In this document: positions 6,094 through 18,585 of the stretch, in pieces | Numbering within the stretch: the stretch's first letter is position 1 | How the letters are laid out: every line of letters starts with the position of its first letter | Source of the DNA: a virus | IMG/VR virus record: IMGVR_UViG_3300000405_000017 | Span: 8,556-35,362 of that record | Length of the DNA: 26,807 bases | Reading direction: 5' to 3' (one strand) | Notes under the pieces: generated by a model | What the model was told of the DNA's origin: nothing | Seen by the model: the letters and a program-made list of their open reading frames with translations, nothing else | The model's database searches: none | Made by a program: the position numbers and the translations under genes

Positions 6094-7644
6094 ATGATAA
6101 AAATAAATGATATATTAGTAGGTACGATACAATCGAATGTTAAGGGTTCAGCGTATTTTACTAGTTCTGACTTACCTAATGATATTTACTTAAATAAAAA
6201 TAATTTAAATAAAGCATTAAATTTAGATACAGTAAAAATTAAGGTTATTGTAGGTAATGGTGATGGTAGGCGCATTGAGGGCGTTGTTATTGAAGTAGTT
6301 GAACGATTTAGAAGTGAATATGTTGGTACTATACAATTAAGTGAAAAATTCGCATTTTTTATTTCAGATAGTAATAAGATAAATGTTGATTTCTTTATTC
6401 CATTAAGTAAACTTAATGGTGCTAAAGAAGGTGAAAAAGTGGTCGCTAAGATAACTGAATGGAAAGATGGTTCTAAAAACCCTAATGGTGAAATTATTAA
6501 GGTAATTGGGAATATTGGTGATCATGAAACTGAAATTCATAGTATTCTTGAAGAATTTGGTTTACCATATGAATTTTCAAGGGATGTATTGGATGAAGCT
6601 GAACTTATTTCTGAAGTAATAACTGATAAAGAAATTGCTAAAAGAAAAGATTTAAGACACCTAACTACCTGTACTATAGATGGTTATGATGCGAAAGATC
6701 TTGATGACGCACTAAGTTTAGAATGGGTTGATGGTAATATAAAAGTTTATATTCATATTGCTGATGTTTCTCATTATATAAAAGAAGGTTCTGAGATACA
6801 CGCAGAAGCCTTAAACCGATCAACATCAGTTTATTTATGTGATAGAGTGGTTCCAATGTTGCCAGAAAAATTAAGTAATAATTTATGTTCGTTAAACCCG
6901 AATACAGATAAATTAGTTTATTCGTTTATATTCACACTTGATCAAAACGCTAAGGTCATTAAGGAGGAGTTTGTTAAAGGTATAATTAACTCTAATTACC
7001 GTTTAACTTACACGGAGGTACAAAGTGTTATCGAGGGTGGTGAAACTCATTCTACTGAGCTTAAACAAGCCTTATTAGATTTGGATAGATATGCGAAAAA
7101 ACTTAAAAAGGTTATGAATAAAAATGGTTCATTAACTTTTAATAATGCTGAAGTTAAATTTAAACTTGATGAAAATAATAAACCAATCGATATATTCTTT
7201 TCTGTTCAAAAAGACGCAAATTTTTTAATTGAACAATTCATGGTTTTAACTAATAGAAGAGTTTGTGAATTTATTGCTAAGAAGGATGTTAAATCAATTC
7301 ATAGAACACATAACACCCCAGACCCAACAAAATTGTATGCATTAAAACAGTTTATTGAGACTATGGGTTATGCTTTAGATTTAAGTAATGAGGATAATAT
7401 AAAATCTGAATTAAATAATTTGGTTAAACAAGTTATTGGTACACCAGAAGAAACCATAGTAAATAATCTAATAGTTAGATGTATGGCTAAAGCTGAGTAC
7501 CAAAGTGATAATATTGGTCACTATGGGCTTGGTTTACAGTACTATACACATGTGACTTCACCTATTAGGAGGTTTTGTGATCTCCAAATTGGATATCAAT
7601 TATCTAATATATTAGGTAATGGAGGTTATCCTATTAAAGAATAA
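6094..7644 (+). CDS. rnr: RNase R, N-terminal part: cold-shock and RNB domains
   Basis: 516 residues closely matching bacterial RNase R, a processive 3'-5' exoribonuclease that degrades structured RNA and non-stop mRNA. Two cold-shock-like domains span about residues 1-150. The RNB catalytic domain has the metal-binding motif TIDGYDAKDLDDA (T194 to A206) with all four aspartates, and TSPIRRF at 488-494. The protein stops just after the RNB domain, where normal RNase R continues into an S1 domain. That S1 part is encoded separately at 11903-12301, after a 4.2-kb insertion. The N-terminal winged helix of long host enzymes is absent. Active as a two-chain enzyme or not, the catalytic residues are intact. 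Confidence 0.88.
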   Translation: MIKINDILVGTIQSNVKGSAYFTSSDLPNDIYLNKNNLNKALNLDTVKIKVIVGNGDGRRIEGVVIEVVERFRSEYVGTIQLSEKFAFFISDSNKINVDFFIPLSKLNGAKEGEKVVAKITEWKDGSKNPNGEIIKVIGNIGDHETEIHSILEEFGLPYEFSRDVLDEAELISEVITDKEIAKRKDLRHLTTCTIDGYDAKDLDDALSLEWVDGNIKVYIHIADVSHYIKEGSEIHAEALNRSTSVYLCDRVVPMLPEKLSNNLCSLNPNTDKLVYSFIFTLDQNAKVIKEEFVKGIINSNYRLTYTEVQSVIEGGETHSTELKQALLDLDRYAKKLKKVMNKNGSLTFNNAEVKFKLDENNKPIDIFFSVQKDANFLIEQFMVLTNRRVCEFIAKKDVKSIHRTHNTPDPTKLYALKQFIETMGYALDLSNEDNIKSELNNLVKQVIGTPEETIVNNLIVRCMAKAEYQSDNIGHYGLGLQYYTHVTSPIRRFCDLQIGYQLSNILGNGGYPIKE

Positions 7645-11853: not shown

Positions 11854-11884
11854 TTGGTTATTCGGTATTTTATGTGTATATTTG
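11854..11884 (+). promoter_or_regulatory. Promoter of the RNase R S1-domain gene
   Basis: TTG at 11854-11856, a 20-nt spacer and TATATTTG at 11877-11884. It shows that the C-terminal RNase R piece is its own transcription unit. It also rules out the TTG at 11882 as a start, since that base triplet is part of the -7 element. Confidence 0.7.
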
Positions 11885-11902
11885 ATAAAAATAAAGTTAA
11901 GT

Positions 11903-12301
11903 ATGAGAAATAAAAAAGAAAATAAAAAAAATAATGTAACAAATTTGGATTCGATATGTAAACATATATCGGAGCGTGAAAGGTTATCAGCAAAGGCTGA
12001 AAGAGAGTCAATAAAATATATGCAATGTATTTATTTATCCGATCATATTGGTAAAATATATACAGGTATAGTTGGATCTGTAACTGAGTATGGGTTATTT
12101 GTTAATATCCCAGATAATGGTTGTGATGCGTTTGTTAGATTAACTAATATTGACGGTACATGGCAAGCTAATATGGAAAGTTATTGTATTAAAGAATATA
12201 ATACTGGTGAAATTATTCGTTTGGGTGATGAAGTATCACTTATAATTTCAAAGGTTGATATCGATAAAAAAAATATTGATGCTAGTTTAATTCGGTTATG
12301 A
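11903..12301 (+). CDS. rnr: RNase R, C-terminal part: S1 domain
   Basis: 132 residues from the ATG at 11903. The helix ERERLSAKAERESIKYMQC matches the segment just before the S1 domain in RNase R. The S1 domain follows: HIGKIYTGIVGSVTEYGLFV, then RLGDEVSLIISKVDIDKK and a final DASLI. It begins almost where the RNB-domain protein at 6094-7644 ends, so the two together cover a complete RNase R with little or nothing missing. The S1 domain binds RNA and raises processivity. It has its own promoter and overlaps the next gene by 4 nt (ATGA). A free-standing S1 protein is the alternative, but the matching linker argues for a split gene. Confidence 0.8.
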   Translation: MRNKKENKKNNVTNLDSICKHISERERLSAKAERESIKYMQCIYLSDHIGKIYTGIVGSVTEYGLFVNIPDNGCDAFVRLTNIDGTWQANMESYCIKEYNTGEIIRLGDEVSLIISKVDIDKKNIDASLIRL

Positions 12302-16359: not shown

Positions 16360-16390
16360 TTGCATTACTAACAAAAGTTTTGTACCTTTG
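16360..16390 (+). promoter_or_regulatory. Promoter upstream of the tRNA-like region
   Basis: TTG at 16360-16362, a 20-nt spacer and TACCTTTG at 16383-16390. It could drive the next gene and the tRNA-like cluster after it, because no other promoter is visible before 17630. Confidence 0.65.
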
Positions 16391-16423: not shown

Positions 16424-16783
16424 ATGATATACGAAAAAATAGTTGTAAGGGAAAATGGTGATAAGGTATTAATTTTAGTTAACCTTTATGTTAATAATAT
16501 TGATAACGGTCACACATATGATATTGATATTAAGGTCTGTTTGAAAAATAAACGAAAATTTGTTAAATTAGAATTTGACGATTATTTGTATCGAATGTTA
16601 TCTATGGAAGACAGAGCTACTTTTAGATATAAGGAATACCTTAAAGTTGTTTCAGAGCAAGAACTGTTAGACGCTAAAATTGAATTGTGGAATTTAATTT
16701 CACCTATTAAAAATGCTGTAATTAAAGCTCCACCACCATCTAGATTTTTAAAGGAGGGTGATATACCACCAAGAAATCACTAA
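16424..16783 (+). CDS. Unknown protein, 119 residues
   Basis: The start is the ATG at 16424. A TTG at 16388 in the same frame lies inside the -7 promoter element and cannot be used, and the ATG at 16407 is followed by a stop after four codons. The product is beta-rich at the front (KVLILVNLYVNN), then helical, with a proline-rich end (KAPPPSR). No family is recognised. It is the last gene before the tRNA-like region. Confidence 0.6.
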   Translation: MIYEKIVVRENGDKVLILVNLYVNNIDNGHTYDIDIKVCLKNKRKFVKLEFDDYLYRMLSMEDRATFRYKEYLKVVSEQELLDAKIELWNLISPIKNAVIKAPPPSRFLKEGDIPPRNH

Positions 16784-16788
16784 TGATT

Positions 16789-16859
16789 TGAGATATAGCA
16801 TATTTTGGATGTATTCACTTTATTAAAGTGATACTTTGGTTCGATTCCATATATCTCAA
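16789..16859 (+). tRNA. tRNA-like RNA 1, anticodon ATT (Asn-like), reduced
   Basis: The acceptor arms TGAGATA and TATCTCA pair perfectly over 7 bp, with discriminator A. The D stem GCAT/ATGT is small. The anticodon stem TCACT/AGTGA is perfect with loop TTATTAA, giving anticodon ATT. The T arm has TTCGATT but one mismatch, and the variable loop is only 3 nt. An A at position 34 is unusual, since Asn tRNAs normally have GTT. This is the only one of the five with a pairable anticodon arm. CCA is not encoded. Confidence 0.45.
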
Positions 16860-17071
16860 CGAACTCGACTCGTATATGGTGTGTTTGTATATAACACATT
16901 CTTTAGTTTTATTGACTAGGTATAAAATATTCGTAGCGGTTGAAATGAAAACGATTCAATCTGGGTGGTTTGTCATATAAAGGTTAAAACCTTGTATATA
17001 CTATATGTCAAATCATTAACAAGTGAGAATATCTATGAGATTACCCAAAGCGGACTTTCTAAGTAGATGAT
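16860..17071 (+). other. Structured non-coding spacer in the tRNA-like region
   Basis: No credible ORF. Two hairpins are visible: GGTTGAA/TTCAATC (16938-16944 and 16955-16961), and a nested pair with TTTGTCATATA (16969-16979) against TATATGTCAAA (17002-17012) enclosing AAGG/CCTT. It has no tRNA T-loop motif. It could be a processing spacer or a separate small RNA. Confidence 0.35.
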
Positions 17072-17145
17072 TACTGTATAGCTCAGTTGGTTAAGAGCGT
17101 CTGGCGGAAGTTGGAGGGGCGTTGGTTCGAATCCAACTACAGTAA
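17072..17145 (+). tRNA. tRNA-like RNA 2 (Phe-like), anticodon stem does not pair
   Basis: Total length 74 nt, the normal size. Acceptor TACTGTA/TACAGTA, D stem GCTC/GAGC with an AGTTGGTTAA loop, and T arm GTTGG-TTCGAAT-CCAAC are all perfect. The anticodon arm, TCTGG-CGGAAGT-TGGAG, does not pair, and U33 is replaced by G. If read by position, the anticodon would be GAA (Phe). The 3' half is strikingly G-rich for this genome (GGCGGAAGTTGGAGGGG). Confidence 0.5.
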
Positions 17146-17265
17146 CAAGCCTAACACTAGGGCTACAAACAAGGTGGGTTTTTATGTTGACCAGAAAAAT
17201 ATACGCTATACTGTTGGTGTTACAGACATTTGACTACTAGGAAGCAAATAATAGTTCTAGTTGAT
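17146..17265 (+). other. Spacer between tRNA-like RNAs 2 and 3
   Basis: About 120 nt without a supported gene. A short ATG frame at 17174 is not convincing. Short inverted repeats (AGCC/GGCT near its start, CTAG/CTAG near its end) suggest RNA structure or processing sites. Confidence 0.3.
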
Positions 17266-17365
17266 TGGTGATTGGCAGAGTGGTTTAATGCTAAACTAAA
17301 AATAGTCTGATATGGGTGTTTTAGCATTAAATTGATGACCGTAGGTTCGAATCCTACATCACCAA
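17266..17365 (+). tRNA. tRNA-like RNA 3 (class II-like), anticodon arm disrupted
   Basis: Acceptor TGGTGAT/ATCACCA and T arm GTAGG-TTCGAAT-CCTAC are perfect, with discriminator A. The D region GGCAGAGTGGTTTAATGC is that of Ser-type class II tRNAs. At 100 nt it is about 12 nt longer than usual. No 5-bp anticodon stem with a 7-nt loop and U33 exists. Instead TTTAATGCTAAA (17284-17295) is perfectly complementary to TTTAGCATTAAA (17320-17331), which would consume part of the D arm. Confidence 0.45.
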
Positions 17366-17422
17366 CGCTAATTAAGCTAGTTTATGAACAGCAAATAAGG
17401 TGTGATTCCTTATTATTAGGTT

Positions 17423-17495
17423 AAATGTGTAGCTCAGTTGGTTAGAGCAAGGGTGTAATAGCTGGGGGTCAGTGGTTCGAGTCCATTCACATTTA
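17423..17495 (+). tRNA. tRNA-like RNA 4, anticodon stem does not pair
   Basis: Normal length (73 nt). Acceptor AAATGTG/CACATTT and D stem GCTC/GAGC are perfect, and T arm AGTGG-TTCGAGT-CCATT pairs with one G.T. The anticodon arm, AGGGT-GTAATAG-CTGGG, cannot pair (mostly G opposite G). By position the anticodon would be AAT (Ile), which normally needs a G or modified base at 34. A GGGGG run follows, as in tRNA-like RNAs 2 and 5. Confidence 0.5.
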
Positions 17496-17514
17496 CATTG
17501 GTTGATTAAAATAT

Positions 17515-17605
17515 AATATTGATCGACTCTTTTGATCGAAGAGTCTGATGGGGCCACATGGTAGTGGGTTGATCTCTCCGATAGGTTCGAATCCTACCAA
17601 TATTA
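17515..17605 (+). tRNA. tRNA-like RNA 5, D and anticodon regions replaced
   Basis: Acceptor AATATTG/CAATATT is perfect, with discriminator A. The T arm has TTCGAAT with a 4-bp stem and one mismatch. The 5' inner part holds a 7-bp hairpin, GACTCTT-TTGATCG-AAGAGTC, in place of a D arm; its loop reads like an Ile anticodon loop (TT-GAT-CG). A second hairpin, CCAC-ATGGTA-GTGG, follows. At 91 nt it has class II size. It is not a standard tRNA in any register I tried. Confidence 0.35.
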
Positions 17606-17629
17606 CTATAATTTTTAAAATAAGTTGAT

Positions 17630-17803
17630 ATGACAAAAATGGGGTTATTTGTGATAGTATTGTATTTATACACTATTGTTGCTTGGTTAGTTAATTTGGT
17701 TAAATTGTTAAATTGTGATTTTAGTGGTCCAATTTGGAAAGAAGAAGTAGTACATATTATTGGTTTAATCCCAGGGGTTTCCATGATAACTTGTTGGTAT
17801 TAA
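17630..17803 (+). CDS. Small membrane protein, 57 residues
   Basis: The ATG at 17630 opens a 57-codon frame ending 1 nt before the next gene's start. Residues 4-24 are a membrane helix (GLFVIVLYLYTIVAWLV), and a second hydrophobic stretch lies near the C-terminus (VVHIIGLIPGVSMITCWY). A short NLVKLLNCDFSGPIWKEE loop lies between them. It is the first ORF after the tRNA-like cluster. No function is known. Confidence 0.6.
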   Translation: MTKMGLFVIVLYLYTIVAWLVNLVKLLNCDFSGPIWKEEVVHIIGLIPGVSMITCWY

Positions 17804-18144: not shown

Positions 18145-18585
18145 ATGAAAAGTGTTGTAAATAATCGAAAAGTATATTTTGAATATGAAATATTAGAAAA
18201 AATAACTGCTGGTATTTGCCTTAAGGGTTCTGAGATTAAAAGTGTTAGACACAGTTCAGTTTCAATAAGTGAAGCGTATTGTTTTATTAAAAATGGTGAG
18301 ATTTTTATTAAAGGTATGAACATTTCCATTTTCGAAAAGGGTGGTTTATATAATAACCATGAACCATTAAGAGAACGTAAATTATTATTGAATAAAAGGG
18401 AGATAATAAAATTACAAGAAAATATTTCACAAAAGGGGTTGACAATTGTACCGATAGAAGTAATATTAAATGATACTGGCTTCGTTAAGGTAATTATTGG
18501 ATTGGGTCGAGGAAAGAATAATTATGATAAAAGAGTATCTTTAAAGGATAAGGATCTAAAACGAGATTTAGATCGAAATATTTAA
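18145..18585 (+). CDS. smpB: SsrA-binding protein SmpB
   Basis: 146 residues, close to the normal SmpB length. The family landmarks are all present: NRKVYFEYEILEKITAGI, LKGSEIKSVR, IKGMNISIFEKGG, NNHEPLRERKLLLNKREI, KGLTIVPIE, GLGRGKNNYDKR. SmpB binds the tRNA-like domain of tmRNA, replaces its missing anticodon arm and enters the A site of ribosomes stalled on truncated mRNA. The C-terminal tail, which occupies the empty mRNA channel, is present but short (VSLKDKDLKRDLDRNI). No standard tmRNA gene is visible here. Nearby are RNase R, the exonuclease that works with SmpB-tmRNA, and tRNA-like RNAs without normal anticodon arms. The phage may use host tmRNA or its own unusual RNAs. Confidence 0.92.
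   Translation: MKSVVNNRKVYFEYEILEKITAGICLKGSEIKSVRHSSVSISEAYCFIKNGEIFIKGMNISIFEKGGLYNNHEPLRERKLLLNKREIIKLQENISQKGLTIVPIEVILNDTGFVKVIIGLGRGKNNYDKRVSLKDKDLKRDLDRNI

Follow-up and report, generated by a model that had tools for sequence, protein, structure and literature searches.

What can five small RNA units be that keep the two ends of a tRNA when four of them show no canonical anticodon arm? The question is raised by an array at 16789-17605, with all units on the + strand, of a 26,807-nucleotide stretch of viral DNA (hereafter the window; positions 8556-35362 of the 35.4-kb virus record IMGVR_UViG_3300000405_000017). The phage is known as a fragment, and all loci discussed here, in the window and in its relatives alike, are metagenomic. 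Our tentative answer, to which we assign a probability of roughly 0.45, is that these are processed, non-decoding tRNA-like RNAs which use the tRNA frame as a chassis, a natural counterpart of the engineered 'tRNA scaffold'.

The five units are remarkably uniform at their ends. All have a 7-bp acceptor stem (35 of 35 pairs are Watson-Crick), a T arm with the loop TTCGATT, TTCGAAT or TTCGAGT, and T at position -1, A at 73 and C at 74. An earlier note, made from the sequence alone, had described them in the same terms, as perfect acceptor stems and TTCRANT T loops with A then C, and its description holds; its word 'intact' suits the T arms in that all five are present, and is too generous for RNAs 1 and 5, each with one T-stem mismatch. 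A canonical anticodon arm (5-bp stem, 7-nucleotide loop, U33 and purine at 37, in the normal place) is found in RNA 1 only, as the note had also maintained, and RNAs 2-5 lack it. RNA 1 (16789-16859, 71 nucleotides) is an ordinary cloverleaf with anticodon loop TTATTAA (ATT), called tRNA-Asn(att) by ARAGORN and scoring 38.5 bits with the Rfam tRNA model.

The remaining four units also bear out the anatomy first noted. RNA 2 (17072-17145, 74 nucleotides) and RNA 4 (17423-17495, 73 nucleotides) have normal lengths and normal acceptor, D and T arms, no anticodon stem, and a G-rich 3' side: positions 27-31/39-43 read TCTGG/TGGAG in RNA 2, with no Watson-Crick pair at all, and AGGGT/CTGGG in RNA 4, with a single G-T. 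RNA 3 (17266-17365, 100 nucleotides) has a Ser-like D arm and, where the anticodon domain belongs, a 24-nucleotide loop closed by a perfect 12-bp inverted repeat (17284-17295/17320-17331) that extends into the D arm. RNA 5 (17515-17605, 91 nucleotides) retains acceptor and T arm, but its D arm gives way to a 7-bp hairpin (GACTCTT-TTGATCG-AAGAGTC), followed by a D-like hairpin. Since the 7-nucleotide loop of the 7-bp hairpin has T in the place of U33, this hairpin may represent an anticodon arm in a shifted position, with anticodon GAT, though with C at 37. Shine-Dalgarno-like G-runs were noted as a candidate function. A motif common to RNAs 3 and 5, AGTCTGATnnGGG, was dropped, no further credible case having been found in 3.3 Mb, and remains of a group I intron, suggested by GACTAG-like motifs, were rejected for lack of any Rfam group I match in 16780-17640 up to E=10.

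A strict scan for such units returned five on the + strand of the window and none on the - strand, compared with a mean of 0.05 per strand in Markov-shuffled windows. The Rfam tRNA model scores RNAs 1-4 at 38-50 bits, leaving the anticodon region of RNAs 2-4 unaligned, and ARAGORN calls RNAs 1 and 2 only, the latter as 'tRNA-???'. Because just 10% of the bases in the window are C, the presence of C74 in five of five RNAs has a probability of about 1e-5 if the cases are independent. Across 13 records, C74 occurs in 199 of 199 RNAs scored as normal and 63 of 68 of the remainder, though this automatic division is rough: it counts window RNAs 2 and 5 among the normal ones because of chance stems, and it places some ordinary tRNAs in the odd class. 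RNAs 2 and 4 together have roughly nine broken pairs, all in the anticodon stem, for which we estimate odds near 1e-8 under random scatter over all arms; a single local replacement in each RNA would be a simpler explanation of this clustering.

Searches with SmpB led to larger relatives (SmpB identity at most about 67%; records are designated G and loci L), several of which hold dozens of tRNA matches and three a full transfer-messenger RNA (tmRNA) gene in addition to smpB (G004:58850-59227 on the - strand, G006:44594-44949 and G007:42241-42596). The array of the window has a metallophosphatase gene on one side and smpB (18145-18585, + strand; Pfam SmpB, 4e-51) on the other, and it occupies the same position in G004 (L077/L005) and G008 (L068). 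The 3' end of RNA 3 and the adjoining spacer (17343-17389, + strand) are homologous to the spacer 3' of one of the G008 RNAs, F2 (83% over 48 nucleotides, E=3e-5). Among annotated phages there is none that resembles the array region or provides a close relative of the array, and an IMG/VR scan by spacer pattern yielded G008 as the sole array relative; matches to the spacer motif CTGGGAAAGACTAGAAA in a scan of viral contigs were mostly unrelated.

Six RNAs, F1-F6, are common to G004 and G008, and their DNA identities may be compared with the 73% of smpB between the same two records. F6 (99 nucleotides, without anticodon stem) is 97% identical, F5 (74 nucleotides, its anticodon stem closed by a 4-nucleotide tetraloop, GCGGC-TGNN-GYTGC) 93% and F2 (93-94 nucleotides, without D arm) 88%, whereas F3 (about 168 nucleotides, with a D-loop insert and an H-type pseudoknot replacing the anticodon arm) stands at 77%. 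Substitutions preserve pairing: an F2 hairpin reads TTGGG/CCCAA in one and TCTGG/CCAGA in the other, with two compensated pairs, its T stem AGAGG/CCTCT and AAAGG/CCTTT, and the second stem of the F3 pseudoknot, read by eye, covaries as ATTGGG/CTCAAT and AAAGG/CCTTT. F1 (86%) and F4 (75%), also structured RNAs, lack a T arm. F1, marked by GCCAGTAAGGTCTGGC and CCAATTAGACTTGGTATGTC, has no Rfam match and is conserved in at least four phages (L068:5229-5346, L077:2620-2736, L058:971-1059, L105:12388-12476), G005 and G016 being among those that carry it. Decay and sequencing error are poor explanations, since several anticodon-less RNAs of the relatives are conserved at 88-97% with compensatory changes; for the class as a whole the earlier argument against decay is thus upheld, and no relative appeared with the same loci and ordinary anticodon arms. 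Between F5 and F6 of the G004 array lies a gene for a GIY-YIG-type homing endonuclease, assigned by motif alone (L005 1769-2416, equivalent to L077 3769-4416).

Not all members of the class behave in this way. At two loci G005 and G016 share the same arms around unrelated cores (66 versus 84 and 87 versus 74 nucleotides), and G006 has several Leu-like RNAs in which one acceptor and T arm accompany differing cores. A Phe-like RNA with an inserted 14-nucleotide hairpin changes its loop from GCGA to GCAA between G005 and G016, both being GNRA loops. As the G005/G016 cores diverge while other RNAs stay conserved, the class, to judge by sequence comparison, is one that includes conserved and fast-changing members alike.

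If the window RNAs are non-decoding RNAs built on a tRNA chassis, a single non-coding transcript would cover the array and be processed into individual RNAs by the tRNA-end machinery of the cell (RNase P, 3' processing and CCA addition), since every unit retains its acceptor stem, T arm, U(-1), A73 and C74. RNA 1 may be a decoding tRNA. As drawn, RNAs 2-5 could not be, having other sequence in place of the anticodon arm, and the tRNA frame would thus be a stable chassis for another domain, through which, we infer, these RNAs act once transcribed and processed. Several observations weigh against this interpretation. No orthologs of the cores of window RNAs 2-5 were found, so that selection on the window's own cores is at most presumed, and RNAs 2 and 4 fold weakly by themselves (z about -1.5). 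Relaxed constraint would also give the non-homologous cores at the two G005/G016 loci, and some of the odd RNAs may in fact decode, as tRNAs with introns or with rearranged genes.

This last point arises from the relatives, which appear from their sequences to carry intron-split and permuted tRNA genes. Sixteen distinct tRNA genes have a 41-56-nucleotide insert in the anticodon arm, formed by a hairpin (AATCT...AGATT) and the element TTCAGCA, which is nearly invariant in an alignment of these intron-like inserts; in most of these genes the arm, once freed of the insert, regains a 5-bp stem, perfect or nearly so, with U33 and a purine at 37. They include Asp, Glu, Asn and Pro tRNAs (L137(-):5520-5402, L059(-):7925-7814, L143(-):3501-3380, L140:6013-6138, L176, L185, L162, L180 and others), and a search of tRNAs in the GTDB genome set gave no case of the insert motif. 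A second type of insert, 3' of tRNA position 38, contains a T-arm-like hairpin and is conserved between G004 and G008 (L052(-):7865-7751, L137(-):1111-995).

At 15 further loci (14 from a scan plus one in L052) the 3' half with its T arm lies upstream of the 5' half, the two being 3-14 nucleotides apart: G009 L140:7134-7420, G008 L137(-):9165, G010 L143(-):3610, G005 L054:7370, G004 L052(-):875 and 1463, and L156, L162, L166, L179, L217 and L266 are examples of such circularly permuted genes. The first scan gave 15 candidates, two being ordinary tandem tRNAs, versus 2 in a shuffled-acceptor control. Most permuted loci have AAGATTnTTTCAGCA on the 5' side and AATCTTG on the 3' side. In six different sequence versions the two acceptor strands are complementary throughout, with three G-U pairs at most, whereas halves that were re-paired gave a match in 1 of 30 cases. 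Anticodon stems form between the two halves, and between L137 and L054 one of them shows a compensated change from CG/CG to CT/AG; at a permuted tRNA-Asn locus of G009 (L140:7120-7280) the joined arm would read CGGCC-TTGTTAA-TGCCG. A PF09414 RNA ligase is encoded by 8 of 11 tested records longer than 110 kb (G002, G004, G005, G008, G013, G014, G018 and G019), and neither RtcB nor the archaeal splicing endonuclease was found in 17 records. A literature search for permuted tRNA and phage found no report, and both the permuted genes and the anticodon-arm introns of these phages are apparently undescribed.

Such genes lend substance to one of the two main rivals, by which the window RNAs, as precursors, would regain an anticodon arm after transcription through splicing, trans-splicing or editing and so become decoding tRNAs, a doubtful proposal even with the introns, the permuted genes and the ligases of the large relatives in its favour. 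The window array has neither the TTCAGCA element nor the class-1 intron insert of related phages (AATCTG..AGATTAnnTTCAGCA); there is no permuted order in the window, where permuted scans gave nothing and the 5' and 3' acceptor strands are normally ordered in all five units; and RNAs 2 and 4 are already of normal length. A mini-exon that might complete RNA 2 (17184, ATGTTGA-CCAGA, in the spacer between RNAs 2 and 3) was rejected as no better than chance (P=0.37 for a random 5-mer); for RNA 4 there is no such candidate. The unusual processing proposed by the earlier note is thus backed indirectly, by the relatives, and by neither signal in the window. With splice element and permuted order both missing there, the rearrangements are context rather than proof. 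It is improbable that this phage group runs a tRNA-rearranging system of its own, cutting permuted and intron-split genes at TTCAGCA and sealing them with the phage RNA ligase, for which the window RNAs would be the chassis, their anticodon domain exchanged or added after transcription. The other main rival, unlikely in our estimation, is that these genes once encoded tRNAs, lost the anticodon arm to a local replacement and persist as neutral leftovers. The two orthologous RNAs with wholly different cores in G005 and G016 favour it, as does the lack of conserved core partners for the window RNAs; decay may moreover be underestimated, as the scanner picks intact acceptors and T arms and partly hides more decayed copies, yet 264 of 316 strict T arms keep an intact acceptor upstream. 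It accords poorly with four RNAs of one array being altered in the same domain with acceptor pairs and A73-C74 kept, and with F2, F5 and F6 being conserved above smpB.

Two more specific roles, both put forward in the earlier note, seem to us very unlikely as they stand. As partners of the phage SmpB in ribosome rescue, the RNAs would be anticodon-less tRNA-like domains as in tmRNA. The gene neighbourhood speaks for this, the window encoding both smpB and an RNase R-like protein and the array adjoining smpB in three records, and so does conserved F5, which has G3:U70, the alanine pair, and whose G004 copy matches the tmRNA model at 28.7 bits, below the cut-off. In the window, G3:U70 is absent from all five RNAs and the tmRNA model has no match in the whole record; G004, G006 and G007 have their full tmRNA elsewhere, and in G005 a distance of about 37-60 kb separates the odd RNAs from smpB. 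As for decoys, anticodon-cutting nucleases are a poor fit, since what they read is missing here and they would not recognise these RNAs; what survives of the suggestion is a decoy for tRNA-attacking defence nucleases that grip the acceptor end and T arm. Fast-changing cores would suit such an arms race, whereas conserved F5 and F6 do not resemble fast decoys.

Among known systems the tRNA-like domain of tmRNA, with SmpB, is similar in having an acceptor and T arm, no anticodon arm and an adjoining smpB. It differs in that the window RNAs lack an mRNA-like part as well as G3:U70, occur several to an array and, in RNAs 2 and 4, have ordinary D arms. To our knowledge, bacterial non-decoding tRNA-like RNAs consist essentially of tmRNA alone. 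A phage group with arrays of such RNAs, some of them strongly conserved, beside its own smpB would add a new field to the RNA biology of phages. The synthetic tRNA scaffold (PMC3753655) likewise keeps acceptor, T and D arms and exchanges the anticodon stem-loop for another RNA; the window RNAs, known here from sequence alone, are natural and arranged in arrays, and would supply natural examples of this RNA-engineering trick. Phage tRNAs that escape nucleases through changes in the anticodon loop (PMC10264068) are also altered in the anticodon domain, but keep a decoding arm with point changes where in the window the arm is gone. GOLLD and ROOL are large structured phage RNAs, often near tRNA islands (PMC12286853); their covariance models have no match in the window, and Rfam gives none in the array of either the window or G008. 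Permuted tRNA genes, in the literature searched, are known only from archaea and eukaryotic algae (PMC3218864). The relatives of the window, though not the window itself, similarly put the 3' half first with a short linker; their break falls near 28/29, within the anticodon stem, and not at 59/60 in the T loop, and they are phage-encoded, with no archaeal splicing endonuclease found. The apparent presence of permuted tRNA genes and short introns in phages therefore makes tRNA splicing in bacterial viruses directly testable.

Upstream of the array and of a short gene preceding it, a consensus match at 16360-16390 (+ strand; TTG-N20-TACCTTTG) is a predicted Bacteroidota-type promoter, one of 8 matches on the + strand of the window and 1 on the - strand. 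A near-identical site (TTGCAT...GTACCTTTG) lies directly 5' of the G008 array. The window also encodes a sigma-70 factor. Its RNase R-like gene is apparently split (6094-7644 and 11882-12301), the catalytic RNB part forming one frame and the S1-like end lying 4.2 kb further on, with a gene for a 1228-residue helicase-methyltransferase between the two. In L006 the RNase R-like protein is encoded by a single gene of 652 residues.
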